DNA from: Deltaproteobacteria bacterium
Lineage (GTDB): Bacteria; Bdellovibrionota; Bdellovibrionia; Bdellovibrionales; JAMPXM01
Direction of reading: 5' to 3'
Length of the DNA: 64,000 nucleotides
NCBI GenBank assembly: GCA_017302795.1
Contig: JAFLCB010000002.1
Span: 248,001 to 312,000, forward strand
Each line of letters opens with the position of its first letter. Position 1 is the first letter of the stretch. Made by a program: the position numbers and the translations under genes. Shown here piece after piece: positions 6,867 to 57,976 of the stretch. The notes below the pieces were generated by a model, which saw nothing but the letters and a program-made list of their open reading frames with translations, did not search any database and had not been told where the DNA came from.

Positions 6867-8777
6867 TTATTCCGTTGGCAATTCGACTGTGAACGTAGTT
6901 CCCTGCCCAAGCGTCGAATCCACGAGGACTCGCCCTTTATGCAATTCGACAAAGTATTTAGCAAGATAGAGACCGAGGCCTGAGCCCTTAATAGTTGAGC
7001 CCTTGGCGTTTCGACTACGATAAAATTTCATAAAGATGTGAGGAAGTTCATCCTCTGGGATGCCCGGGCCCTGGTCAGCGACCTGGACAACGATCGATCC
7101 GTCCCGCTCTTCAGAGGTCACTAAAATCGAGGTTCCTTCCGGGCTGTACTTGATTCCGTTTTCGATCAGGTTTTGAAACACTTGCCGCATCAGATCCACA
7201 TCGATTTTTATGCTAAACAGGGGCTCGAGTTCCGCCCGAATTTCGATATTTTTCGAGCGAGCGAGGTATTCGAGTTTTGCGATCACGTCTTTTACCAGCG
7301 CGTTCACATCCTTCGAATGAAAATGCAGTTGAATCGCTTTGGACTCAATTCGACCGAGATTTAGTATGCCAGAGACAAACTCCAAAAGCTCATCGCTAGA
7401 ACGTCGCAAAGTTTCGACGGCCTCCCGCTGACGGGCAGACAGGGGATTGCTGTCGTTGCGAACGACATCAGCCATCCCCTGAATACGTGCGATCGGCGTT
7501 TTAAGATCATGCGACATCATCGAGAGGAAGTTCGTTTTAAGCTCTTCAACCTGAGTCAGCAGTTTATTCTTTTGGTAGTATTCCCAGCTTCGCCGATTTT
7601 CGATGATCAAGCGGTAGGGAATAAAGAAATAATAGCAGATGAAAATCGCGATAAACGGATGAGCGACTGCGATCCAAAATCCGCCTAGCCAAAGTGCTAA
7701 AAATGCAGCGACAAAATATCCGGTGAGGGTCGAGCCAAGGATTAACAAGCCCGTTGTCGGGGTTAGCGTCAGGACGACGATGACCGTCAGGTAGGAAATG
7801 AGTCCGGTGAGCAGCGTGTTCACCCATTGCGGTGCTCGGATCGGCGCTTCGTTTTGAATGAGCGTATCAAACATGTTGGCTGAGAGTTCGACGATCGTCA
7901 TCGCCACGATTTCTCTGGAATAGGGGGTTCGAACATAATCTTTCGAAGTTGTCTGAATGTCCCGGCCAAGGATCACGATCTTGTTTTGAAATTGATTGAG
8001 ATCAACCGTGCCTCTTAGGACTGAAAGAAAACTGATCGCCTGGTAGGTGCCCGCGGGAGCGAAACGGATGTAGGCCTGATCGCTTTTTAGATAATCAAAC
8101 ACTCCGCGAAATGCTTCTCGGTCGTAGACGGGTTTCGCAGGTTGACCATTGAGTTCCCAAATTTGCGCGGCGGTCGTCGGATAGAGAGTGGGCAAGCCTT
8201 GGTAGGCGAGCATCATCCTTCTCGTCACGTCGTCACGGGCAAAAATGTTTCGGTCGACTGGGACCGGCGCACTTGCGGTCTTAACTTTTTCAAAGGGGAC
8301 AGGAAGCTTCAGCGCATCTCGTTCGCCACCTAACGGAACGTCGTCCAAAGCGACGACGAATCTTGGGATTTCGGAGGCACTGTTCGCGAGCGCCCGCTGC
8401 TCTTCGGCCGAGCCAAGCGTTTCCGAAAGATTAATCAAAGAAACAATCGTGTGGGCTTTTGCCTGATGAAGGCGTTCGACCACAGTTTTGAAATCATTCG
8501 CGTTTGGAACACGCCCGAGTTCTTGAATTGTAGCGGGGTCTATGACGATTGTAGCGACATGGCCAGAGGGAGCCGGTGCCGGTCGGAATCTAAGCCGAAC
8601 GTCATAGGTGAAAGATTCAATGTAATCGAACGGAAACTGAGTCAGGATTGCGGTGATTGCAGCTGCAAAGATGGCTCGGGAAACATGAATCAGCGCGGGC
8701 TTTAATTGAAGTTTGGACCAAAAAGAATTGGCCAACGAATTGGCCAAAAAATTTCTCTTATCTTGCTGCTTATCCAC
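6867..8777 (-). CDS. CHASE2-domain sensor histidine kinase
   Basis: 636-residue membrane kinase. One membrane segment (~32-48) leads into a periplasmic CHASE2-type sensor domain (~50-310, starting FDYIESFTYDVRLRFRP). Three closely spaced membrane segments (~315-390) follow. The cytoplasmic part has a HisKA domain with phospho-histidine near 423 in MMSHDLKTP, and a HATPase domain with DQGPGIPEDELP and GSGLGLYLAK. The GTG start at 8777 has AGGG 4-5 nt upstream. It sits between the small ORF at 8803-9039 and the NtrC-type regulator. CHASE2 is a sensor of unknown ligands; the neighbouring radical SAM enzyme suggests a modified peptide as a possible signal (inference). Confidence 0.92.
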   Translation of the reverse strand: MDKQQDKRNFLANSLANSFWSKLQLKPALIHVSRAIFAAAITAILTQFPFDYIESFTYDVRLRFRPAPAPSGHVATIVIDPATIQELGRVPNANDFKTVVERLHQAKAHTIVSLINLSETLGSAEEQRALANSASEIPRFVVALDDVPLGGERDALKLPVPFEKVKTASAPVPVDRNIFARDDVTRRMMLAYQGLPTLYPTTAAQIWELNGQPAKPVYDREAFRGVFDYLKSDQAYIRFAPAGTYQAISFLSVLRGTVDLNQFQNKIVILGRDIQTTSKDYVRTPYSREIVAMTIVELSANMFDTLIQNEAPIRAPQWVNTLLTGLISYLTVIVVLTLTPTTGLLILGSTLTGYFVAAFLALWLGGFWIAVAHPFIAIFICYYFFIPYRLIIENRRSWEYYQKNKLLTQVEELKTNFLSMMSHDLKTPIARIQGMADVVRNDSNPLSARQREAVETLRRSSDELLEFVSGILNLGRIESKAIQLHFHSKDVNALVKDVIAKLEYLARSKNIEIRAELEPLFSIKIDVDLMRQVFQNLIENGIKYSPEGTSILVTSEERDGSIVVQVADQGPGIPEDELPHIFMKFYRSRNAKGSTIKGSGLGLYLAKYFVELHKGRVLVDSTLGQGTTFTVELPTE

Positions 8778-8802
8778 GAGGCCCTATTGCTTTCTCGTAT
8801 GG

Positions 8803-9039
8803 TTAGCGATCAAGGCCAGAAACTGGAATACAGCCTCCACCTGGACGGCGATCCATCGTCGGACTTTTTGCCGACAAGGAATCCGCCAGGGGAGTGTGTC
8901 CTGCGTTCGAAGTATGAGCAGCGACGCTTTTTACTTCGTTTACACTGTGGTCAGTCTCCACCGATGACGAAATGCGATCGATTGCCTGCGCCGAGGACAA
9001 CGAACCTTCTGGCGAATTTAATTTTTTAATGAATTTCAC
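8803..9039 (-). CDS. Small ORF coupled to a radical SAM enzyme; candidate modified peptide
   Basis: From a GTG at 9039 this frame encodes 78 residues starting MKFIKKLNSPEGSL. GGAG lies 6 nt before the GTG, and the frame overlaps the end of the radical SAM gene by 14 nt, an arrangement typical of translational coupling. A longer version from the ATG at 9087 (AAAGGA ~10 nt upstream) is possible. The peptide is Ser/Ala/Thr/Asp-rich, has no signal peptide or membrane segment, and ends in a Gly-rich tail with its only cysteine, RRPGGGCIPVSGLDR. It stops 25 nt before the kinase start. No family is recognised. A precursor for the adjacent SPASM enzyme is inferred from position only. Confidence 0.5.
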   Translation of the reverse strand: MKFIKKLNSPEGSLSSAQAIDRISSSVETDHSVNEVKSVAAHTSNAGHTPLADSLSAKSPTMDRRPGGGCIPVSGLDR

Positions 9040-47640: not shown

Positions 47641-48171
47641 ATGGAGAAGATCAGCGGAATTTTGCCTAGTTCATCGCGAGTTTCATCCGTTGATATGAAA
47701 GACGCTGCACCCATTCGCCCCGGAACACCTAGTTTCGGAAGACCAGAAGGCGTTTCTTCCTTACGAGACGCAAAAATCGGTGAAACAGCGGCTAGGGCCG
47801 CAAAAATCAATCAAGACCGTCTTGACTGGAAATCTAAGGATCTCAATCAGGCCGCTCTGGCTCGCGAGATTTCTGAAAGCTTTTTCATCAACCGAAAGGC
47901 CAATGCCGTGAATGAAATGAATGTCGACGCGGGAATGACGGAGCTAAGGGGAGATACTGCCAATCAGGGGATCCCTGCCGCAATGATGTCGGCGAAAGCC
48001 TCGGCGCCAGCCGGTTTTGACTCGAGAATCGAATCTGTTGTTGAATCTGTAACGAGTGATTTTGGCGATTTGGCTACTGATCTTGCTCCCGTTGAAATGA
48101 ACGAATCGCCCCAATCCGATGCGCCAGCTGGCCTTTATCCGAGAGGCAGTTTTGTCGACGTCCGTGCATAA
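47641..48171 (+). CDS. Unknown soluble protein, Ser/Pro-rich N-terminus
   Basis: 176 residues from the ATG at 47641, which has AGGAGG 5 nt upstream. There is no signal peptide or membrane segment. The first ~40 residues are polar and Pro/Ser-rich (RPGTPSFGRPEGVSSL). A short helical part follows (AARAAKINQDRLDWKSKDLNQ), then an acidic, disordered-looking C-terminus. No family is recognised. The 3' end overlaps the convergent cpaF-type gene by 37 nt. A regulatory or cytoplasmic scaffold role linked to the Tad locus is possible but not shown. Confidence 0.65.
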   Translation: MEKISGILPSSSRVSSVDMKDAAPIRPGTPSFGRPEGVSSLRDAKIGETAARAAKINQDRLDWKSKDLNQAALAREISESFFINRKANAVNEMNVDAGMTELRGDTANQGIPAAMMSAKASAPAGFDSRIESVVESVTSDFGDLATDLAPVEMNESPQSDAPAGLYPRGSFVDVRA

Positions 48172-49322
48172 GTGAGATTGCTTCCATGTCGATAGAGCGT
48201 GGAAAAACAAAAGCCAATATCTTCCAGCGAGGCGACCTGGTGAATACTTCCCAGTCGCCTTTTCCCGTCTTCGTCCTTTTCAGCGACGACAATGAAGTCG
48301 ATACTTGAATGAATCAGCGAGCGAACTGTGTGAGTGGTCCACTGTGGTGCGCCCATTTGCACGAGCATTTCCAGGCGCAGCAATGCCTCGCGCGGTGTTG
48401 CTGCGTGAAGTGTCCCCCAGCAACCCCTGTGACCGGTGGCAAAAGCCATCAATAGGTCCTTTGCCTCTCCGCCGCGGACTTCACCCATGACAATTCGGTC
48501 GGGCCGCATTCGCAAACAGTGCTTGAGGAGATCTCCGAGGCCGAATTCCGTGTCGCCAGCGACTCGTGCAGGTTTGGAAAGAAGTTTTGTACTTACGGCG
48601 TTCGGTATCGCAATCTCGTCGGTGTCTTCGATCAGCAAGATCCGCTCGTTTGAACCGGTTGCGTTCAGGCAGGCTGAAAGAGCCGAGGTTTTTCCGGCTC
48701 CGGTTGCTCCCACAACAAGTACATTGGATTTCTCATCTACGATTTTCTCTAAAAGTTTCCTTCCGCTGTCATCGACCCAACCCAGTTCTCTAAGCTCATC
48801 GAGTGACCATTTTTTATTGCGGATTCTTCTGAGTGTGATGTTGGGCGTTTCACTGACAATCGGGAGACCCGCGACGTGAACTCGGAAATCTCTCCATCGG
48901 CCGTTAGCAAAAGGCTGTGTTTCATCGGTGTTTGTACGCGCTTCTCGCGTCAGCCGGTGAACAAAGCTTCGGAACGTCGTGTGATTTAAAAACCTGTCTG
49001 AGTGAGGAATCAACTTTCCTTTCCGTTCGAGCCAAATCACTTCGGGTGAAAGAATGAGGATCTCGGTAACGTCGTCGTCACCGATCGCCGAGTGGAGCGG
49101 CCCAAATTCAAATAGCTCTTCAAGCACACGGCGTTTCGTAATTTCGCTCAGATGGAGAGTCGCTTTATCTATGCACGTTTCAAGGGCGACGTCGCGATCG
49201 CGGTTAATACGATCCAATACTGGCGTGTGCTTGAGACTTGGAATTTCTTGAATGGCACGTAACGTTGATTCCGCTTGCTTAAAAACTTCAGCATTGAAGA
49301 GGGTATTTTCACTAGATTCCAT
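48135..49322 (-). CDS. cpaF: Tad pilus assembly ATPase CpaF (TadA-like)
   Basis: 395 residues from the ATG at 49322 (GAGGG 5-6 nt upstream); the frame is open back to 49427 but that part overlaps the secretin gene. A secretion ATPase: an N-terminal helical domain, then VVGATGAGKTSALS (Walker A, ~185), an Asp box LLIEDTDEI, and RPDRIVMGEVRGGEA (Walker B, ~250) with GHRGCWGTLHAATPREAL after it. It powers Flp pilus extension or retraction. It overlaps the upstream secretin gene by 11 nt. The usual tadB/tadC partners do not follow. Confidence 0.92.
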   Translation of the reverse strand: MESSENTLFNAEVFKQAESTLRAIQEIPSLKHTPVLDRINRDRDVALETCIDKATLHLSEITKRRVLEELFEFGPLHSAIGDDDVTEILILSPEVIWLERKGKLIPHSDRFLNHTTFRSFVHRLTREARTNTDETQPFANGRWRDFRVHVAGLPIVSETPNITLRRIRNKKWSLDELRELGWVDDSGRKLLEKIVDEKSNVLVVGATGAGKTSALSACLNATGSNERILLIEDTDEIAIPNAVSTKLLSKPARVAGDTEFGLGDLLKHCLRMRPDRIVMGEVRGGEAKDLLMAFATGHRGCWGTLHAATPREALLRLEMLVQMGAPQWTTHTVRSLIHSSIDFIVVAEKDEDGKRRLGSIHQVASLEDIGFCFSTLYRHGSNLTYARTSTKLPLG

Positions 49323-50712
49323 TTTCGCCCTCGCTTGGCGCATTTGGAAAATAGACTTCGGGCGTAACGAAGACCAAGAGTTCGGTAAGGTTTTGGTTAA
49401 AGTCTTGGCTTTCGAACAGTCTTCCAAGAATAGGGATGGAGTTTAATAGAGCGACCCCGGAGACCGCTTTCGATTCTTCTTTCTTTATTAGCCCCGAAAG
49501 CACGACAGTTTGAGTTCCCTTGAGATTGAACTGAGTATCAATTCGATTTGTGAGAATTCCCGGTACAGTGTCGACTTTGTTGGCCCCATCGAGCGACGAA
49601 ATTTCGGTGCTAAGCTGAAACTTCAAACGTCCCAGGCGATCTGCCCGTGGCTGAACATGGAGCATGATTCCGTATTTTTTCCATTCAACTTGCGATGTGC
49701 GAATAGTGGAAATTTTAATAGGTATTTCACCACCGGCGAAAAACTTTGCCTCTCCTCCCGAACGGCACAACAGATTGGGCATAGCTAAAATCCGACCATC
49801 ACCGGAATTTTCAAGTGCTTCGATTTTGGCGGTGAGCGATTCGCTCGACACCACAAATGAGGAGGCCGCGCTAACCGTCAAATCTTGAGGCCATCGAATC
49901 CCCAGCAATTGCCTCTTGGAACGACGGATTTCCGCAAGGACAATCTGTGTTCGAACCATCGGTTCGAGCTCATTTAACGTTGCCGAGGTTTCAAGCGATA
50001 AACCAAGGGTGGTCACTGCTAGAAGTTGAGTTGCCGAATGCTTCGGCCCCTCAGTGCCGGAGGTCAGCCGGATTCCCGATTCATCTATACGCAAAAAGTC
50101 GCCCGGCCACGCTAGCTTCTTTAGTTCTCCGTCGATTGCCCTATGTAGGTCTCCTCGGATCGGGGCAAAGGTGTTGGCTTCAAGGCGCCAAGCAATTCGA
50201 TGAGTTTTTGCTATTGCTACTAAGTTCTCCCAATCATCAATTCGCAGTAGTTCGCCGGTCACGACGACTTGCGGAAGCGCGGCTGGGTCAAGCGTGAGCC
50301 CGCGGCGTAAACTTAAATAATCGTTAAAGCGGCGGGCCGCTTCCGCGACTTTTCTTTCTGTCACGTAAATGGTTCGATCTTGAAGCAAAGACTCGTCTCG
50401 CTTGTCGCGGACATCGCCTCCGCGGGACGAGATAAAGCGCATACTTGTTCTGCCCGTACGACGGCCGGTGAGAATGATGCTTGATCCGATAGATCGGGCT
50501 CGGACTATCCCACCGTCGCTTATATGAATTTTCGATGCGTTTGGGATTTCTAATCGCACCGATTCTCCTAAACCGATGATAGAGGTTTTCGCATTGGCCC
50601 CCAGTGCGAAAAAAGAAGAAGCTGCAAGAAGGGCATAAAGCAGGCGTCTTTGCAGGCTGGGGCTCAAGGATCGGATGATTAACAAATTGCAAATGGGCTT
50701 TGGGGCATTCAT
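49312..50712 (-). CDS. cpaC: Tad pilus outer-membrane secretin CpaC (RcpA-like)
   Basis: 466 residues. A signal peptide ends near ALGANA (~41). An N-terminal domain with IGLGESVRLEIPNASKIHISDGGIVRAR is the CpaC pilus-assembly N-domain. The secretin domain (~250-455) contains GDGRILAMPNLLCRSGGEAKFFAGGEIP, VDTVPGILTNRIDTQFNLKGTQTVVLSGLI, and the closing VSGVALLNSIPILGRLFES and LTELLVFVTPEVY. It forms the outer-membrane channel for the Flp pilus. GAGG lies 8 nt upstream. Coupled to cpaF by an 11-nt overlap. Confidence 0.92.
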   Translation of the reverse strand: MNAPKPICNLLIIRSLSPSLQRRLLYALLAASSFFALGANAKTSIIGLGESVRLEIPNASKIHISDGGIVRARSIGSSIILTGRRTGRTSMRFISSRGGDVRDKRDESLLQDRTIYVTERKVAEAARRFNDYLSLRRGLTLDPAALPQVVVTGELLRIDDWENLVAIAKTHRIAWRLEANTFAPIRGDLHRAIDGELKKLAWPGDFLRIDESGIRLTSGTEGPKHSATQLLAVTTLGLSLETSATLNELEPMVRTQIVLAEIRRSKRQLLGIRWPQDLTVSAASSFVVSSESLTAKIEALENSGDGRILAMPNLLCRSGGEAKFFAGGEIPIKISTIRTSQVEWKKYGIMLHVQPRADRLGRLKFQLSTEISSLDGANKVDTVPGILTNRIDTQFNLKGTQTVVLSGLIKKEESKAVSGVALLNSIPILGRLFESQDFNQNLTELLVFVTPEVYFPNAPSEGENGI

Positions 50713-50829
50713 AGGTTTGGCCTCGCTGGCGGAAAAAGCGTGATGCTTTCGCAGTTCTGCAAGAGCGGTAAACCTCTGAGATCGAACTATTCGACAATAG
50801 AGTGAAGAAATTTGTCCGAGTTCCGGATA

Positions 50830-51954
50830 TCAGTGTTGGAGGGAGTCAGGATCAATTCCGATTGAGAAGCTTGCAACGACTTTTCCTGCTTTAGAAGCCA
50901 GCTCAAGTTTAGAATCCTGCAACTTTAAAAGGGCGTTACAAATACTGAGGCCGAGCCCAGTGCCGACCGAGTGATTCAACGTGTTTTCGTTGAGCGTAAA
51001 TGGCTTGAAAAGATTTTGAATTTTTCTTTCGTCGATGGCAGGTCCGAGATTTTCAATCGAGATTTTGTAAAGTCCGCCTGCAATGGTTTTTCCGCTAACT
51101 TGGATTTCGCTGCTTGCGGTGGCGAACTTCACAGCGTTGTGGGTCAGTCGACGAATCACATTTTTCAATATTTTTTCATCGCCAATGAAGTTTTGATTTT
51201 CGATGTCGAAACGAATCTCAAGGTGTCGATCCGACGCAATTTTTACGACGGGATCAGTTAGAAGTTTTTCGCTTAGTACCGACTTCGAGGTTAAGGATCT
51301 CAAATCTAGTTTGGTTTGCTTCGTCTCTGCCGAAACCAACTCTAAAGAGTCATTGATCATATCTTGCAAACGAGTTGCGGCGGTGCGGATGCGGCTGAGA
51401 TAACGCTGCTGATCGACATCGAGCTTTGTTTCACCCAAGAGGTCCGTAAAACTGAGCATTGTTGTGAGAGGTGTTTTTAATTCATGGTTCACTAGCACCA
51501 TGAATTGGTTTTTCGCTTGATCCAAGGTTTGCAGTTCGTCGAGGGCCTCCTGCAGCGCTCGATTCTTCTCCATCAGCTCTTGGCCGAGCTCATACCGTTC
51601 GACAGCTTTGTCGATCGTGTTAACGAGATCGACGGGGTCCCAAGGTTTATTTACGTAGCGATAAATTTGCCCGCTATTGATCGCTTCAATAACGACTTCA
51701 ATATCGGCGTAACCCGTCAGCAAAATACGGATGGCATCGGGGTGGGTGGAGAGTGACTTTGTTAGAAATTCAACGCCAGTCATTCTCGGCATTCGTTGAT
51801 CGCTGATGATCAAGGTAACTCGATTTTTGTCCAGAATCTTAATAGCGTCTGCGCCTGAAGTCGCCTTTAGTACCTTGTACTTCGTACGAAAGAGGCGCTC
51901 GAGCGCATCTACGTTATCAGCTTCGTCATCAACGCAAAGAATGGTGTGCTTCAT
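50830..51954 (-). CDS. Response regulator-histidine kinase fusion
   Basis: 374 residues, soluble. An N-terminal receiver (1-120) with phosphoacceptor D52 in ISDQRMP is followed by a coiled linker, then HisKA with H157 in LVNHELKTP. A HATPase domain comes last, with NVIRRLTHNAVKFA and VGTGLGLSICNALL. A receiver placed in front of a kinase suggests that phosphorylation controls the kinase. No membrane segment or output domain is seen, so a partner must carry the output. It lies 117 nt upstream of the cpaC-cpaF pair on the same strand and may regulate the pilus. Confidence 0.9.
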   Translation of the reverse strand: MKHTILCVDDEADNVDALERLFRTKYKVLKATSGADAIKILDKNRVTLIISDQRMPRMTGVEFLTKSLSTHPDAIRILLTGYADIEVVIEAINSGQIYRYVNKPWDPVDLVNTIDKAVERYELGQELMEKNRALQEALDELQTLDQAKNQFMVLVNHELKTPLTTMLSFTDLLGETKLDVDQQRYLSRIRTAATRLQDMINDSLELVSAETKQTKLDLRSLTSKSVLSEKLLTDPVVKIASDRHLEIRFDIENQNFIGDEKILKNVIRRLTHNAVKFATASSEIQVSGKTIAGGLYKISIENLGPAIDERKIQNLFKPFTLNENTLNHSVGTGLGLSICNALLKLQDSKLELASKAGKVVASFSIGIDPDSLQH

Positions 51955-52314
51955 CAGTTATTTCTAGTGTAGGATTTAATCAGAGGAACCTGCAATACGG
52001 TTTCCTTGAGTAGTGCTGCTCGACGTCCAAGGAGGGAAGTCGGTAGAAACCGCGCGAGAACCTAGGTTTCGGCTTGCCGACGCCCTTTCAGGAATCTCTC
52101 GAAAAGCGCGGATTCACCTGCCCAATTCCCGACCGAGGTCTAGGGCATCCTCTCTTGCTGTCAACATTTTCGACACGGATACGGCATTAGCTTGAAAAGC
52201 AACTCGACTTGTATCGAGGTGATTCAAGTCGAGCGTCGAAAATGTCGACACGGTAGAAGTGATAGACCGTTTACGTAAGACCGCTTCGAATAGCGAAGCG
52301 ATCAAGGAGACGAC
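51955..52314. promoter_or_regulatory. 360-nt divergent intergenic region with compound dyads
   Basis: Region between the regulator-kinase fusion (minus) and the Gly/Met-repeat gene (plus). It contains two related 17-bp sites of the form TGTCGA-N5-TCGACA: 52159-52175 (minus orientation, one mismatch) and 52234-52250 (first base differs). A 9-bp inverted repeat, CTCGACTTG (52203-52211) with CAAGTCGAG (52225-52233), abuts the second site. AAGGAG at 52305-52310 is the ribosome site of the next gene. The layout fits cooperative binding by a dimeric regulator. I see no tRNA or known riboswitch. Confidence 0.6.
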
Positions 52315-54654
52315 ATGAAGCTCAGAGCATGGGCAACGCTCTTGATGGCATTCATCATGATGACATCTTCCATTTCCTCAGCTCAGTGGGGATACGGAAT
52401 GTACGGCGGCATGCAAGCCTGCCAAGGTTATGGTGCTGCTGAAGGTGCAAGCGATGAAGACGACGAACTGGCCGAACTTGCCGAAGAACGTCGCGAACTT
52501 CGCCGTGAAAAGCGCGAGCTTGAAAAATCATTTCGTCAGATCGAACGCGATCTCGACACGCTTCGTGAGTCGGTCACCACGGTTGTAAAATCAAGCTGGT
52601 CGACAGTGATTCTCGAGCACATGGACAAGGGAATGAACTGTTCGGTTTGTGGTACCCAACCAGGCCGAGTGGTCGTTGAGGGTCCGCAAGTAGCAATACC
52701 AGCACCGACTCCGGGTCGTCCAATCGGTCCTCCAGTTGGGCCCGGAACCGTCACAGAAACCGTCACGATTATAGAAGAAGTGGCTCCAACGCCGATCGTG
52801 CGTCCCGCGACCCCGACACCAGCGCCGCCGGCAACCCCAGTTCCGCGGCCGCCAGCTCCGCGTCCTGAGACGCCGCCACCTCGCCCAATTGTTGTGGTGC
52901 CACCGCCTACGCCGGTTCCAACACCTGAAGTTATTATTCTTCGACCGGTCCGTCCTAAACCTTCGCCAAATCCGAGTCCATCATCAACGCCCAGGAAACG
53001 AACGGAGTTCACACCAGAATCTGGCGGTGGCCGGATGCCCGCGGGTGAGCGCATGCCAGCTAATGAGGTCGTGTCCGCTTCTGCAAGACTGACGGGACAG
53101 GCACAGCCCGGTTCATTTGATGATTTCGGTCCAGATCTCGGTGAACAGACGTTTGGTGCCGATGGTTCTCCGACTCTATGTAATCCAGCTCGTGCGCCTT
53201 ACACCATGAACGCCTGGCGCGCGATTTGTCGCGGAGAAGGACGAATCGATGCGCGTGTTTGTCGCGATCGTTACTTCCAGCAAGGTGAAGTTAAGCCTGC
53301 GCAAGCTAATTCATGTGCTCGTGCCATTGAACGTTACCGCAAGCTGACGCTTGAAATGACCAAAGCACAAAATCGGTTAGCTAAAGTTGAAGACGAAATT
53401 TCAAGCATTGGTTACCGAATTGGCGATATCAAGATGTCACGACGTCTTGATCGTGACATGGAAGCAGATTGTCCAGCCGGCGACGGAAGTTGCTACGAGC
53501 GCGGTTCGGCAAAAAAGACCAGATCAAAAGGTCCCTCGCTTGGACAAACTCTTCTCGCTGTCGGGATGGACGCACTTCAAATTGGTGCGACATACACGCT
53601 CGGTAAGAAAGCAAACGAGTGGAATGCACGCACGGGGCACCAAGCGGTTCCATACGTCGCTTCGGGCATCATGAGTGGCGCTTATTATCCTTATCGTACG
53701 GCCGGTCTTTATGGCGGCATGTATGGAGGAGTGAATGGCGGCTTCGGATGTTCGCCTTCGATGGCCGGCGGCGGAACGACAATGGGTCCCTATGGAATGA
53801 TGGGCCCATACGGTATGGCAGGCGGAGTCTATGGCGGAATGAATAGTCCGTTCGGCTACCCTGGAATGCAGGGATATCCGAACTACGGCGGAGGAATGTA
53901 CAACCCGGGGGCAGGTCCTTGGGGTATGAATGGTCCATGGGGCGTCGGTCAATGGCCAGGCGGTTACCCAGGTGCCGGCGGATTCGTTGGCGGAATCGCC
54001 GGAGGAATTGCCGGAGGATTCGCTGGAATGCCAGGAATGGCCGGTGGATTCGCTGGTATGCCCGGTTACGCTGGTGGTATGGCAGGTATGGCCGGCGGCT
54101 TCGCTGGAATGCCAGGTTACGCTGGTGGTATGGCAGGCATGGCCGGTGGTTTTGCAGGAATGCCAGGAATGGCCGGCGGCTTCGCTGGAATGCCAGGTTA
54201 CGCCGGCGGTATGGCAGGTATGGCCGGCGGCTTCGCTGGAATGCCAGGTTACGCTGGTGGTATGGCAGGTATGGCCGGTGGATTTGCGACCGGATATGCC
54301 GGTGGCTTCGCCGGTATGGCCGGCATGGCCGGTGGCTTCGCGTCGCCGTGGGGAATCGCAGGCGGAATGGCTGGCGGCTTTATGACTGGCATGTCGATGG
54401 ATCCAACTTTGATGCAGCAGCAATATCAGCTGCAACTTGAAGCTCAGCGACGTCAGACCGAGCAGGCGGCCTCGCGCATGCGCCTCTATCAAGGCTTTAT
54501 GTCGGAGTACATGCAATTCCAGATGAAGTGGAACCAGTACTTTGGAAGTGGTGCAGGATCAGATCTCTACTATACCCCAGGCGCGGGCTCAGGTTCCACC
54601 ATACCAGGCGGCTCTGGGCCAGGTGTCGGGACAACTCCGGGAAGAACGCGGTAG
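52315..54654 (+). CDS. Secreted Gly/Met/Ala-repeat protein, possible surface fibre or adhesin
   Basis: 779 residues. Signal peptide ~1-24 (LLMAFIMMTSSISSAQ). Then a charged coiled-coil segment (~45-90, ELAEERRELRREKRELEKS), a CSVC pair (~106), a Pro/Thr-rich stalk (~125-235) of APTPGRP-type repeats, and a Cys-containing helical domain (~285-385). A long Gly/Tyr/Met-rich region (~435-695) has exact 17- and 10-residue repeats, GGFAGMPGYAGGMAGMA and GGFAGMPGMA. A Gln-rich helix and a Gly/Ser/Pro tail close the protein. No family is recognised. The low complexity suggests an extracellular or envelope structural protein. AAGGAG lies 5 nt upstream; a strong terminator follows. Confidence 0.8.
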   Translation: MKLRAWATLLMAFIMMTSSISSAQWGYGMYGGMQACQGYGAAEGASDEDDELAELAEERRELRREKRELEKSFRQIERDLDTLRESVTTVVKSSWSTVILEHMDKGMNCSVCGTQPGRVVVEGPQVAIPAPTPGRPIGPPVGPGTVTETVTIIEEVAPTPIVRPATPTPAPPATPVPRPPAPRPETPPPRPIVVVPPPTPVPTPEVIILRPVRPKPSPNPSPSSTPRKRTEFTPESGGGRMPAGERMPANEVVSASARLTGQAQPGSFDDFGPDLGEQTFGADGSPTLCNPARAPYTMNAWRAICRGEGRIDARVCRDRYFQQGEVKPAQANSCARAIERYRKLTLEMTKAQNRLAKVEDEISSIGYRIGDIKMSRRLDRDMEADCPAGDGSCYERGSAKKTRSKGPSLGQTLLAVGMDALQIGATYTLGKKANEWNARTGHQAVPYVASGIMSGAYYPYRTAGLYGGMYGGVNGGFGCSPSMAGGGTTMGPYGMMGPYGMAGGVYGGMNSPFGYPGMQGYPNYGGGMYNPGAGPWGMNGPWGVGQWPGGYPGAGGFVGGIAGGIAGGFAGMPGMAGGFAGMPGYAGGMAGMAGGFAGMPGYAGGMAGMAGGFAGMPGMAGGFAGMPGYAGGMAGMAGGFAGMPGYAGGMAGMAGGFATGYAGGFAGMAGMAGGFASPWGIAGGMAGGFMTGMSMDPTLMQQQYQLQLEAQRRQTEQAASRMRLYQGFMSEYMQFQMKWNQYFGSGAGSDLYYTPGAGSGSTIPGGSGPGVGTTPGRTR
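54013..54276 (+). repeat. Two 132-bp higher-order coding repeats
   Basis: Within the Gly/Met-repeat gene, 54013-54144 and 54145-54276 each encode one 10-residue unit (GGFAGMPGMA) and two 17-residue units (GGFAGMPGYAGGMAGMA) in the same order. Codon-level differences between the copies are few. The nested pattern points to duplication of a 44-residue block and to likely length variation between strains. Confidence 0.85.
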
Positions 54655-54682
54655 AAATTCGTTCCGATTGTAAAATCAAATG

Positions 54683-54716
54683 CGGCCAACAACGAAAACG
54701 TGTTGGCCGTTTTTTT
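54683..54716 (+). terminator. Intrinsic terminator after the Gly/Met-repeat gene
   Basis: CGGCCAACA, a 9-nt loop, TGTTGGCCG, then seven T, 28 nt after the stop at 54654. It lies between convergent genes. Confidence 0.92.
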
Positions 54717-54734
54717 GGCCACCGGTTGATTCAA

Positions 54735-55895
54735 TTACCAACCGAAGTTTGTTGTCGGCTGTACTTGTGTTTCTCTGCTGCGTGCAGAAATTGCGATAGC
54801 TAATACTGCGACGCCGCCAATTGCTGCCCACATCCATGGGCGAACGATCGGTGGTTGATCAATCGGAGCCGTCGAACGAAAGGGATCGAGTGGAACGGCA
54901 CCGCGACCGAAGTTGCTGATTTGTTTCAGTCCCAAATTCTGAATCCTCGGTAGAGCGACGCCGATCATCTCCTCGCATGTTTCATCTCCAATCACAGCTA
55001 TTTGCGCGGGCTTAGAATGATAAGCAGAGAAATCTACTGAACAGGGGGTCTTTGGGTTGATCCAAACTTGTCGGGGCCCTAGATCTTGGAAATTCCGGGG
55101 ACTCGAAATCAGCAAAGTCTTTGGCTGAAAAAGATTAGAAACGAAACTCAGTCGAATCTTTGCCGCCGGCAAATCTTCAGCCATGGAAACAGGGGCGAAG
55201 TAGATTTCGAAATACCTTTGCGATTTAGGTTGCCATTTGCCGTTCACAAAAACGCCTGAAACGTCTTCCGGCAGATCTGCAAATTTATAGATTTTTGGTG
55301 TCATTGTTTCAGCAATTTTCCTCGCTTCGAACAAAATCATGTCCGACTGTTCTCGCGCATTCGCCGCTGGCCCGGCCATTGATTCCATCGCCGATTCGGT
55401 CATCGGTTGAGAACGCCGTTTCAAATGTTGCGCGATTCGGAAGATAAGCGGATCGGTTTTCTCAGTCGCATTCTTTTGCATGCGGCGATTGAGATTCGCC
55501 TTTCTAACAAGAAACTCGAAAAAAATATTTTGAATTTCTTCGGTCCAGTCACCCTGGTCCTCAATCTCAAGGAGCGCATCAATCGCACCTACTGATGGTG
55601 GAGCAGTAGAGCCCTGAGCATCGAGCCACTCAATTTGAGCCGCAACAGTTTTCGCGCGGATCGCGCTTTCCATTTCTTGGCTGTCAGAAATTCTCTTTGC
55701 AAGAAAAGTTGCCACAGGAACAACTCCGAAAGACTGGGCACGGGCTTGAAATTCAATTTCGGAAATTGAGGGGTGCCGAAACGCCGGGGTAAAGTCTTCA
55801 CTAAGGTCTCCTGTCTGGCCAGATGCGGGAGTGATTGAAAGAAACAAGGTCGACATTGCAATCAGCGGGATAAGGATGCATTCAGTTTTTTTCAT
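54735..55895 (-). CDS. Exported protein with C-terminal membrane anchor, Tad-locus unknown
   Basis: 386 residues. A signal peptide (~1-27, ILIPLIAMSTLFLSITPASG) comes first, then a helical part (~35-190) and a beta-rich part (~200-330, RYFEIYFAPVSMAED, FQPKTLLISSP) with two cysteines. A C-terminal membrane segment (~355-372, WMWAAIGGVAVLAIAIS) ends the protein. No family is recognised. It is the last gene of the minus-strand pilus cluster, 13 nt after the CpaB-like gene, so it probably serves pilus assembly or anchoring (inference). Confidence 0.75.
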   Translation of the reverse strand: MKKTECILIPLIAMSTLFLSITPASGQTGDLSEDFTPAFRHPSISEIEFQARAQSFGVVPVATFLAKRISDSQEMESAIRAKTVAAQIEWLDAQGSTAPPSVGAIDALLEIEDQGDWTEEIQNIFFEFLVRKANLNRRMQKNATEKTDPLIFRIAQHLKRRSQPMTESAMESMAGPAANAREQSDMILFEARKIAETMTPKIYKFADLPEDVSGVFVNGKWQPKSQRYFEIYFAPVSMAEDLPAAKIRLSFVSNLFQPKTLLISSPRNFQDLGPRQVWINPKTPCSVDFSAYHSKPAQIAVIGDETCEEMIGVALPRIQNLGLKQISNFGRGAVPLDPFRSTAPIDQPPIVRPWMWAAIGGVAVLAIAISARSRETQVQPTTNFGW

Positions 55896-55908
55896 GCGAA
55901 GCTCACTT

Positions 55909-56559
55909 TCATTGAATTGAATTTAAAGTTTCCTGCTCCGGGATTTCTTCGACGATAAAATCTGGTTTGGTATATTTTGGTCGCTGGTTCCTGCTAGTCT
56001 TGCGCGGTTCGGGATAGCCATGTTTCGGCGAGCCCTTCCTAACCACAACAAGAACGGGGGTCCCAAGTCTTGTGAGAATATCCGAATCGGCTTCTTTCAC
56101 TAGAACTGCAAACTTCAAAGGATTTTTCGGTGCTCGTACCAGCGGCAAGCCGCGTGCGATGAGTCGCTTTCTTCGACTTGTACTACCGGACTCTAAGTTA
56201 ACTGAGTCATCACTAAGCGCGCTGTAAAGATCAACGTAGGCATGATTCTCGATAAGCGCATCAATAGCTTCGAAATTCAGCGGTTCAATTGGAACAAGGA
56301 CAAACCCGTCAGGCAACTGATCGATCAAAGACGGAACGGAGGATGGTTCCGATTTAGGCCGAGCTTCAGAATTTCCAGAAGGCCCGAATGAAAGTAGCAA
56401 CATCATTAAAATAGCCGCCGTCGAACTAAACATCCAAATGCGAAAGGCTTTTGATTGTCCTTCAACGGTGTCATCGGAGTTTCTGAGGCTGCTACTTATT
56501 TTTCTGATAGATCGTTCTAAAGTCTTCAAAACCAGTTCGACCCATTTTCGTGCCAGCAT
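55909..56559 (-). CDS. CpaB-like pilus assembly protein (divergent)
   Basis: 216 residues. A basic cytoplasmic part precedes one membrane segment (~41-60, MFSSTAAILMMLLLSFG). Then LPDGFVLVPIEPLNFEAIDALIENHAYVDLYSAL resembles the CpaB/RcpC pattern, in which a SAF-like turn is followed by a valued pair of strands ending in V-D-hydrophobic. ARGLPLVRAP...FAVLVKEADSDIL fits the next CpaB block. The C-terminus is a basic, Pro-rich tail. CpaB proteins sit in the periplasm under the secretin. GGAGGA lies 7 nt before the ATG, which supports this start even though it overlaps the preceding gene by 68 nt. Confidence 0.65.
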   Translation of the reverse strand: MLARKWVELVLKTLERSIRKISSSLRNSDDTVEGQSKAFRIWMFSSTAAILMMLLLSFGPSGNSEARPKSEPSSVPSLIDQLPDGFVLVPIEPLNFEAIDALIENHAYVDLYSALSDDSVNLESGSTSRRKRLIARGLPLVRAPKNPLKFAVLVKEADSDILTRLGTPVLVVVRKGSPKHGYPEPRKTSRNQRPKYTKPDFIVEEIPEQETLNSIQ

Positions 56560-56764
56560 TTTTCAGTCCTCCGACGCAAATAAATACACAACCCAAAAAG
56601 AGCATCATGACGATGATGAGTTCGATGAAAGCTTGTCCTCTGTTGGCTGCGGGGCCCATAAACCGGAACCTACGGGCTCGAGAGTCATTGAACAGCCGAA
56701 CTCGATCTCCGGAAAAAAATCGTCGACCGCTGAATCTATAGGGTTTCTCAAGGTGCTTTTCCAT
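56492..56764 (-). CDS. TadE/TadF-like pseudopilin
   Basis: A single membrane segment with the prepilin motif NRG-QAFIEL (Glu at +5), then a short C-terminal tail; a minor Tad pseudopilin is likely. From the ATG at 56764 (GGAG 7 nt upstream) it is 90 residues with a long basic leader and overlaps the preceding TadG-like gene by 160 nt. From the ATG at 56659 it is 55 residues with a 55-nt overlap and a normal leader, though only a weak AGG site. I cannot decide between the starts. Its 3' end overlaps the CpaB-like gene. Confidence 0.65.
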   Translation of the reverse strand: MEKHLEKPYRFSGRRFFSGDRVRLFNDSRARRFRFMGPAANRGQAFIELIIVMMLFLGCVFICVGGLKNAGTKMGRTGFEDFRTIYQKNK

Positions 56765-57333
56765 TTGAGTACTCCGTTTTGTGAGTGTTGAAAGTTAGGC
56801 GCTGGGAAATATGTAGGTGTTAAGTGCGTCGGTGAAGAAGCAACCATTTGGAAGCTCGGTGCCCGGGTTTCAATCCTCGCGGACTTCAGCCAGGGACGTA
56901 GTCCTTCCGGGATACTTTCCAAAACGCCTTGTTTGGCCAGCGAGGGAACCATGCTGGAGGCCTGCTTTCCCTTTGCTAGCCAATAGAGCTGTTTCTTCCG
57001 TACAGGAGCCTGTGCGAGTTCTACGGTTTTTAGTAAAGCCAATGCTGCTGATCGCGCGGCTGGATTAGGTATCACAATCGAAGCCTTCAAAGCCTTTAAA
57101 GCAGATTGCCTCGTTGTTTCGAGTGCTTTGGCTCTTACGTTTAGCTTGGTTAGCTCTGCCAGCGCATTCCCTACGCTGGCCTGACTTTTTGCCATACGAA
57201 GTCTACACGCAGTCGTCGCCTTCGCTTCAACTGCGAGAGCCAAACCTAAGATGAGGATTCCTCCGACGATCATTACAACAAGCGGCAAAAGAACGACCGC
57301 AGCGAAAGAAATTTGGCCTCGTTCATTTTTCAA
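56605..57333 (-). CDS. TadG/TadE-like pilus protein
   Basis: 242 residues. The N-terminus MKNERGQISFAAVVLLPLVVMIVGGILIL has the RGQ-type leader and single membrane helix of TadE/TadG proteins, though +5 is Ala rather than Glu. A helical, Ala/Leu/Lys-rich part (~45-130) and a polar C-terminal part with one disulfide-capable cysteine follow. Its start overlaps the upstream pseudopilin gene in ATGA. The C-terminal ~50 codons overlap, in another frame, the possible leader of the next pseudopilin gene. Confidence 0.72.
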   Translation of the reverse strand: MKNERGQISFAAVVLLPLVVMIVGGILILGLALAVEAKATTACRLRMAKSQASVGNALAELTKLNVRAKALETTRQSALKALKASIVIPNPAARSAALALLKTVELAQAPVRKKQLYWLAKGKQASSMVPSLAKQGVLESIPEGLRPWLKSARIETRAPSFQMVASSPTHLTPTYFPAPNFQHSQNGVLKWKSTLRNPIDSAVDDFFPEIEFGCSMTLEPVGSGLWAPQPTEDKLSSNSSSS

Positions 57334-57701
57334 CTGCGACCTCTTGGAAAGTACATTGGCTTTCTAAATGTTGAATTTGCGTAAATCTGGCCCGAGCGTT
57401 GGGAGCGGTCGAAGGCAAGTTGAAGACTTACCCGTGATCCGGTGCGATCGGATTTGAACACGAGAATTTTAGTGCGACCGATCGGTAGTCCGGCGGTCAA
57501 AGTCGATTCGAGACGGACTCGACACCGAGTTGGCGGCGACGGAGAAGCCAGGCAAACCGCGGCTTCGCGAGCAGCGCGATCCAACCAAATTTTCGCAAAC
57601 GACATATAGAGAATTCCGGAGCTTCCGAGAATTAATATTCCCAGGATTGGGACCATGAGGACTGATTCCAACGTGGTAGACCCGTTTTGATTCAGCTTCA
57701 T
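57330..57701 (-). CDS. TadE-like pseudopilin
   Basis: 123 residues. MKLNQNG-STTLE has a type IV prepilin cleavage site with Glu at +5, followed by a hydrophobic helix (SVLMVPILGILILGSSGILYMSF). A basic C-terminal domain with two cysteines in VCLASPSPPTRC follows. This matches TadE/TadF minor pilins. AGGTGG lies ~3 nt before the ATG. Overlaps the flp gene upstream and the TadG-like gene downstream by 4 nt each. Confidence 0.8.
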   Translation of the reverse strand: MKLNQNGSTTLESVLMVPILGILILGSSGILYMSFAKIWLDRAAREAAVCLASPSPPTRCRVRLESTLTAGLPIGRTKILVFKSDRTGSRVSLQLAFDRSQRSGQIYANSTFRKPMYFPRGRS

Positions 57702-57976
57702 TGTCCACCTGTCGAACCAACTCCATCCATGAAATTGCCGAGGTCTCGTTTTTTCAATTGTTCTTCAGGAATTGCGTCCACGACCGGCTTAGCTTTTTTG
57801 CCTTGAAGGGCATAAGCAATGGTCGCGAAGCGAGAGTTCACTGCTTGGCCGAGAACGCGCACCACACCTATGGTAGCGACTGCGACTAGAGCTACAATTA
57901 CCAGGTACTCGATAAGTCCTTGGCCTCTTGAGTTTGTAACGGCCGAGGTGGAAGGCGATTTTCTGAATTTTCTCAT
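57698..57976 (-). CDS. flp: Flp-family major pilin
   Basis: 92 residues. The leader MRKFRKSPSTSAVTNSRG is followed by QGLIEYLVIVALVAVATIG, the Flp motif with Glu +5 and Tyr +6 and the usual hydrophobic helix. The tail (~45-92, LQGKKAKPVVDAIPEEQL...) is longer than in many Flp pilins, which end near 60 residues. GGAG lies ~10 nt upstream. First gene of the pilus cluster, set apart by a terminator at 58061-58088 from the small basic-protein gene. Confidence 0.9.
   Translation of the reverse strand: MRKFRKSPSTSAVTNSRGQGLIEYLVIVALVAVATIGVVRVLGQAVNSRFATIAYALQGKKAKPVVDAIPEEQLKKRDLGNFMDGVGSTGGQ

Follow-up and report, generated by a model that had tools for sequence, protein, structure and literature searches.

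Genes and Features at the Locus

A gene for a 779-aa Gly/Met-rich exported protein, here called GM, lies amid Tad-type pilus genes in the window, i.e., the whole stretch of 64,000 nucleotides that was analyzed. The gene is real, its ORF and coordinates being those given in a preliminary description of this DNA, and its product is an exported protein by prediction from the sequence. The features at the locus are as follows, with the basis of each assignment in parentheses.

48135-49427, minus strand: TadA/CpaF-like ATPase (PF00437, E=3e-39; TIGR03819, E=1e-68, below its cut-off)
49312-50712, minus strand: secretin, CpaC/RcpA-like (PF00263, E=7e-37)
50830-51954, minus strand: receiver + HisKA + HATPase protein, divergent partner gene of GM (Pfam)
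52224-52248, plus strand: promoter-like element TCAAGT-N14-TGTCGA, located 91 bp ahead of the GM start codon (alignment block, pattern)
52315-54654, plus strand: GM gene (ORF; homologues)
54678-54714, no strand assigned: hairpin followed by a T-run, a possible terminator for both of the convergent genes (inverted repeat; RNA folds z -2.2 and -1.6)
54735-55895, minus strand: 386-aa probably exported protein, convergent with GM (ORF; signal-like N-terminus)
55909-56559, minus strand: 216-aa conserved island protein (35 of the 38 island loci that have room carry it)
56605-57333, minus strand: TadG-like minor pilin candidate (hydrophobic N-terminus and position; relatives elsewhere)
57330-57701, minus strand: TadE-like minor pilin candidate (position and N-terminus; relatives elsewhere)
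57698-57976, minus strand: Flp pilin with a GQGLIEYLVIV motif (sequence)

The TadA, CpaC and kinase genes are found on one side of GM and the Flp, TadE-like and TadG-like genes on the other, which places GM on the opposite strand between two halves of a Tad cluster, as had already been described. From the divergent kinase gene it is separated by 360 bp. The labels TadE-like, TadG-like, Flp and FolD, the last for a gene beyond that of the Flp pilin, were given by motif and are presumed to hold. Neither Pfam nor NCBIfam returned a family for the 386-aa protein, nor did Pfam for the TadG-like candidate. At E<=0.001, 11 T2SSE and 6 T2SSF matches are counted in the host genome. Not one of the six, which would be of TadB/TadC type, falls in the window, and the Tad island therefore looks partial.

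Architecture of the GM Protein

The following parts of the protein can be delimited, all encoded on the plus strand.

52315-52383, plus strand: type I signal peptide, aa 1-23, with the cleavage after SSA placed by eye (sequence)
52444-52626, plus strand: N-terminal coiled coil, aa 44-104 (AlphaFold2 helices 44-90 and 93-104)
52648-53184, plus strand: Pro-rich linker, 45 Pro in 178 aa (sequence)
53179-53502, plus strand: helical domain containing Cys, with a long coiled coil, aa 289-396 (conserved Cys columns; helix 328-384)
53539-53634, plus strand: Gly-containing hydrophobic helix, aa 409-440 (AlphaFold2 helix; conserved Gly/Tyr columns)
53683-54381, plus strand: Gly/Met/Ala low-complexity domain, about aa 457-689 (composition)
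54013-54144, plus strand: 44-aa repeat unit, copy 1, aa 567-610
54145-54276, plus strand: 44-aa repeat unit, copy 2, aa 611-654, same protein with 11 silent DNA differences
54403-54543, plus strand: Gln/Met-rich helix, aa 697-743 (AlphaFold2; Q-rich columns conserved)

Ahead of the ATG, a Shine-Dalgarno-like stretch, AAGGAGACGAC, can be recognized by eye. In the signal peptide region, Ala is the family majority at columns 21 and 23, and AlphaFold2 places an N-terminal helix at residues 2-17. The motif WGYGMYGGMQAC comes next, ahead of the first coiled coil, where pLDDT reaches 80-87 across residues 51-100. The Pro-rich stalk and the coiled coil of the preliminary description are both found again, in the sequence and in the AlphaFold2 helices, respectively. 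The long Pro-rich linker is mainly confined to the window's own family (f1): the median linker length over 58 GM rows is 36.5 aa, and 9 of the 11 rows with at least 20 Pro in the linker belong to f1.

Seven Cys columns are conserved, namely 36 (58/58 rows), 109 (53/57), 305 (54/58), 316 (57/58), 334 (58/58), 393 (57/58), and 479 (58/58), and all of them are present together in 51 of the 58 rows. At column 396, Cys occurs in 43 of 54 rows; the window protein has Arg there, with C386 instead, and its Cys pair is formed by residues 386 and 393, the counterpart in most relatives being CxxC. The hydrophobic helix 409-440, modeled at low confidence (pLDDT about 43-46), can be regarded as a possible membrane-active segment.

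Over the whole protein, the mean AlphaFold2 pLDDT is 44, and the model is confident only in the coiled-coil-like helices. No match at E<=0.001 was obtained with this model in Foldseek, and in a PDB profile search the best E was 0.025, for coiled coils. For the window protein, no hit in Pfam or NCBIfam exceeded the cut-off of its model. Pfam was also run on 30 members cut off ahead of the repeats, and no Tad domain is among the families returned. An adhesin or anchor domain was found above cut-off (Pfam, NCBIfam) neither in the window protein nor in these 30 members. Carrying a type I signal peptide, as judged by eye, and no Tad domain, GM does not look like a Flp/Tad pilin or a core Tad component. 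It does not look like a trimeric or classical autotransporter adhesin either, no YadA anchor or autotransporter beta-barrel being matched in Pfam; the resemblance of its coiled coil to the NCBIfam autotransporter-associated N-terminal domain is weak (17 bits, with a cut-off of 55).

Repeats and Composition of the Gly-Rich Part

The low-complexity domain of the window protein contains 38% Gly, 15% Ala, and 12% Met. The nested Gly/Met repeat of 10+17+17 residues reported earlier is confirmed at aa 567-610 and 611-654, as two tandem 44-residue units of identical protein sequence. No charged residue occurs in the unit, and an extra Gly is found every 7 or 10 residues. An exact 132-bp block, as first thought, is refuted: 11 of the 132 bases differ between the copies, all silently, which rules out an exact DNA duplication, and the longest exact DNA repeat within the gene is 62 nt. 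When 11 changes were placed at random, the protein was unchanged in 0 of 20,000 trials, with a mean of 7.85 amino-acid changes. Since the observed changes are all silent, an outcome never obtained by chance, the repeat is maintained at the protein level and is no fresh copy.

The earlier suggestion that repeat number may vary is supported by three single-contig genomes whose N-parts are 98-99% identical and whose C-parts measure 320, 324, and 331 residues; aligned pairwise, these C-parts show 13-23 gap columns. A contig end cuts 6 of 57 homologues on the side of the repeats and none on the opposite side; in 20 further loci, one homologue is cut at each side. As homologues run off contigs at the repeat side, repeat copy numbers derived from short reads are unsafe.

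In 55 of the 58 rows (three short ones dropped), the Gly-rich part has a mean of 39.5% Gly and 0.5% charged residues, the latter reaching a maximum of 12% in one row. RTX proteins are built on Asp-containing Ca-binding nonapeptides, which neither the uncharged 44-aa unit nor this low average of charged residues resembles. Met makes up between 0 and 52% across the 55 rows and falls as Leu/Ile/Val/Phe/Tyr/Trp rise, with r=-0.93, a value obtained from related rows, uncorrected for the tree and with fractions that are partly sum-constrained; L092, one of the low-Met rows, contains a run of N and an out-of-frame tail. A chemistry that depends on Met itself, e.g., the scavenging of oxidants or the binding of metals, is disfavored, Met being at 0-2% where Leu, Phe, Ile, and the like make up 22-31%.

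Regarding Gly spacing, a distance of 2 between Gly residues is rare (mean z -3.5), one of 4 is the most enriched (1.7), and one of 3 only weakly so (0.4). The best lag is 4 in 12, 3 in 9, and 6 in 7 of 51 rows, and lags 3, 4, and 7 are prominent in the window protein. A single Gly period, as in collagen, polyglycine II, or silk, is not constant over the family (51 of the 58 rows, the shorter ones dropped). The uninterrupted Gly-X-Y of collagen-like proteins is not found, lag 3 exceeding z=2 in 15 of 51 rows, and L045 alone comes near to pure Gly-X-X. Selection seems to hold Gly content and overall hydrophobicity, and not Met, a fixed Gly spacing, or the number of repeats.

A separate observation concerns the last residue of GM (window 54649-54651), which is Arg in 47 of 52 uncut rows despite differing tails and in 12 of 20 further loci, one of those being cut by a contig end. 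As background, Arg ends 96 of 764 mechanical ORFs of at least 250 aa. C-terminal Arg can thus be taken as a strong trend only and not as a rule, given the 12 of 20.

Relatives, Synteny, and History of the Family

In a whole-protein search, GM matches were found in 64 of 98 genomes, the window's own counted. A profile of the non-repeat part matched 120 of the 368 genomes in the phylum, the window's own again counted, the weakest of which may be chance matches; 116 of the 120 belong to the same order, three lie elsewhere in the class, and one elsewhere in the phylum. The six loci named by lineage are Bdellovibrionota, Bdellovibrionaceae, Bdellovibrionales, and Bdellovibrio MAGs.

Sixty stretches were taken, mostly round the better matches, and a GM ORF was identified by phmmer (E<=1e-3) in 57; L077 and L097, matched only by the profile or the whole-protein search, and L088, a neighboring piece with no match, were excluded. 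Forty-five of the 57 loci were labeled "island" from neighbor genes and kinase, two of them (L061 and L096) from the kinase alone. The kinase gene is adjacent and divergent to GM in all 45, and 43 carry another island gene. Among island loci with room, Flp is present in 37 of 38, CpaC in 38 of 42, and TadA in 37 of 41. GM therefore occupies a constant position beside flp, tadA, and rcpA/cpaC genes, with the reservation that the label drew on these same neighbors. What had been called an insertion into the pilus locus appears from synteny as an old resident of it.

Twelve of the 57 copies lie outside the island, with no island genes within the stretch taken. In five of the 12, a kinase-like gene is found just upstream on the same strand; that of L079 is a HAMP-type kinase without a receiver. 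On a tree of 58 GM proteins, midpoint-rooted and with 17 of 55 inner branches open, the island/other label takes four changes, i.e., a clade of nine from a Bdellovibrio-like genus and three single cases. Among the non-island copies, L047 groups with its own genome's island copy (support 100/100), L094 belongs to a fully supported set of four that includes its own genome's island copy, and L089 is not placed. From this nesting on a midpoint-rooted tree, we infer that the island is the old home of GM, and the copies outside it mostly look like later duplications. Homologues away from pilus genes, which the preliminary description had held to speak against a pilus link, do exist in these 12 of 57, most of them best read as derived second copies.

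The 20 further stretches comprise 18 island loci and two second copies outside the island, so that 18 of 20 show the same locus type. The synteny in both sets gives good support to the proposed exported protein linked to the pilus. The kinase is adjacent in 15 of the 17 further island loci with upstream room, and in L175 and L177 the secretin gene, not the kinase gene, is next to GM. L168 and L169, which belong to the class but not to the order, also carry the island.

Some individual loci deserve mention in their own right. In L061 (G071), a kinase and GM pair has no Tad genes detectable beside it, and a pilus partner may thus not be obligatory for GM. In L081, the second copy of genome G038 (7418-8932, plus strand) has a convergent YkuD L,D-transpeptidase gene 18 bp away, a neighbor kept in six of the clade of nine. 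The homologue of L065 (G040) ends after about 420 residues within the Gly-rich part, at an in-frame TAA, and is possibly a broken copy.

Promoter-Like Element and 3' Hairpin

Upstream of GM, 40 of 46 island copies carry the pattern T[CTA]AAG-N15-[GT][ATC]CGA at 61-132 bp from the assumed start, the pattern having been shaped on the same sequences in which it was first counted. With a spacing of 13-17, the element is likewise found in 40 of the 46, against a null mean of 0.9 and a maximum of 4 in 300 first-order Markov sets, and it is found in one of 12 non-island copies. In a later set, chosen after the pattern was fixed and counted with no null, it precedes 11 of the 17 island copies that have sequence upstream and neither of two second copies. 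On both strands of 48 stretches (1.71 Mb), the strict form TCAAGT-N14-[GT][AT]CGA occurs at 29 sites, all at the GM gene, 28 being assigned by script and that of L064, 69 bp before the likely GM start, by hand.

The elements usually read TCAAG or TTAAG and ACGA or TCGA. The attack-phase consensus of B. bacteriovorus is reported to be TTAAG-N16-CCGATA (PMC3627812), and the GM element resembles this FliA consensus in its spacing and in part of its letters. In the 14 flagellin upstream regions of two genomes, one site has the GM spacing, five are one base shorter, and one is two bases longer; with this mostly shorter spacing, FliA can be named only as a candidate sigma factor for the GM element. 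Genome-wide, the element is not enriched in six genomes (81 sites vs. 102 for the reversed pattern), and a regulon of that extent is not visible. A single site in G038, that at the GM gene, fits the narrower TCAAGT-N13..15-TGACGA, vs. three for the reversed pattern. Separately, TCAAG-N16-ACGAT has nine sites in G038 vs. three for its reverse.

The preliminary description had credited GM with a complex promoter and a terminator of its own. The conserved element and the hairpin with its T-run agree with this. The long palindromes upstream (52159-52250), however, are not conserved as such, by eye in four relatives, whereas the -35/-10-like element is, and the terminator scan does not list the hairpin at 54678-54714, giving one terminator-like site vs. 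a mean of 3.0 in shuffles. The promoter/terminator scan also returned no sigma-70-type promoter on the plus strand, and Rfam gave nothing at gathering score within 51800-54900.

Comparison with Known Systems

The locus L055 (genome G038) is taken here, from genome size and gene order, to be that of B. bacteriovorus HD100. Its order is Flp, TadE, TadG, a small ORF, proteins of 160, 291, and 412 aa, GM, kinase, secretin, TadA, and AspRS, and its Flp matches PF04964 at E=4e-4, below the cut-off of that model. The same gene order can be read for the HD100 flp3 locus from three papers, in which flp3 is Bd3297 (PMC5430801), Bd3306 and Bd3307 are named pilQ and cpaF (PMC3818213), and Bd3311 is aspS (PMC4206432). 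ORF counting from Bd3297 puts GM at about Bd3304 and the kinase at Bd3305. In PMC5430801, flp3 is reported to be silent under the conditions tested and its pilin dispensable, deletion being without loss of predation. The same paper places flp3 outside the TAD locus and calls it non-TAD-associated, whereas in the genomes considered here the flp3-type pilin is housed in a partial Tad island of its own, in the window at 48135-57976 and without a TadB/TadC-type match. No paper on Bd3300-Bd3305 was found in main texts, and papers naming Bdellovibrio together with glycine-rich include none on the GM protein, as judged by titles and abstract openings. A search for proteins that are Gly-rich, Met-rich, and of low complexity and belong to the pilus and outer membrane likewise gave nothing related.

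As in Tad/Flp pilus islands, GM is surrounded by a TadA-type ATPase, a secretin, and Flp and TadE/G-like genes; unlike Tad/Flp components, it has no pilin motif or known Tad domain, and the window has no TadB/TadC-type match. Abductin and silk-like elastomers are Gly- and Met-rich, of low complexity and with aromatic residues. GM is like them in these respects, a likeness of composition only, and differs from them in being bacterial and in having Cys domains and coiled coils. Some phage adhesins carry polyglycine-II domains, and every-third-residue Gly is enriched in the window genus and strongly so in L045, but the GM family, unlike these adhesins, has no constant Gly period.

Proposed Role and Alternatives

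Taken together, the evidence fits an exported protein, probably oligomeric and stabilized by disulfides, whose uncharged Gly/hydrophobic domain is kept for its composition, and a domain kept in this way has the look of adhesive or elastic surface fibers. GM can best be read as a secreted low-complexity surface or pilus-associated fiber, probably of the attack phase and with a putative fiber function, and its location suggests that it works with, or is co-regulated with, the flp3-type Tad system. Its transcription would start from its own FliA-like promoter, head-to-head with the receiver/histidine-kinase gene and apart from the pilus genes; the element is observed, its activity and sigma factor are presumed. 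Exported by Sec by way of the predicted type I signal peptide, the protein would oligomerize via its coiled coils, be locked by putative disulfides among the conserved cysteines, and be held at or beyond the outer membrane, where the uncharged Gly/hydrophobic domain could form a sticky or elastic fiber, a coat, or a pilus-associated tether at the contact with surfaces or prey.

The reading preferred here, tentatively and at a little less than even confidence, is that GM is a secreted structural protein of a second, flp3-type Tad locus of Bdellovibrionales. Weighing against it are the low-confidence model with no fold match, the want of a recognized adhesin or anchor domain above cut-off, the element's lack of genome-wide enrichment, the reported silence and dispensability of the flp3 pilin in HD100, and the L061 pair with no Tad genes detectable beside it. 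Its constant position inside the island would also suit a periplasmic or outer membrane scaffold or assembly factor of the Tad machine, helping the secretin or pilus biogenesis, which is not a surface fiber and has its Gly-rich part packed inside the outer membrane or through it. The Gly-containing hydrophobic helix 409-440, though of low confidence, and an island seemingly without TadB/TadC (no T2SSF match in the window) point the same way. Such a role is nevertheless rather unlikely, as GM has its own promoter-like element and the opposite strand, unlike the adjoining Tad genes, and as second copies persist away from Tad genes and the kinase and GM pair of L061 has none nearby.

A general surface or matrix protein of a biofilm or coat, located at the Tad genes through co-regulation with the adjoining kinase and without direct pilus contact, would account for the kinase being next to GM in all 45 labeled island loci, L061 among them, and for the derived copies elsewhere, six of the clade of nine lying beside the gene whose L081 member is YkuD. 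The old location with Flp/TadA/CpaC across many families of the order, and in L168 and L169 outside it, makes this unlikely, as do L175 and L177, where the secretin and not the kinase adjoins GM. That GM was inserted recently, has a phase-variable repeat, and bears no relation to the pilus might be imagined from the opposite strand and the repeats, but this is contradicted by a position conserved across the order and by repeat differences that are silent and accumulated, and is highly improbable.

On the preferred reading of GM as a structural protein of the flp3-type locus, a fuller picture can be drawn, which we hold to be doubtful as a whole: a family of the Bdellovibrio lineage forming an elastic or adhesive Gly/hydrophobic fiber of the hunting phase, displayed with a second Tad pilus, its low-complexity domain selected for composition rather than sequence; it would be a bacterial counterpart of the Gly/Met elastomers of animals, possibly serving contact with prey or surfaces. 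Predatory Bdellovibrio needs pili and surface proteins for the recognition and entry of prey, yet its flp3 pilin is reported to be silent and dispensable (PMC5430801). An exported low-complexity protein is kept at this locus across the order. With the conserved GM and an attack-phase-like promoter element of its own, the flp3 locus is made testable, and the Gly-hydrophobic domains of the family, in which Met, Leu, Phe, or Tyr can take the hydrophobic part, form a natural series for work on materials and adhesion.
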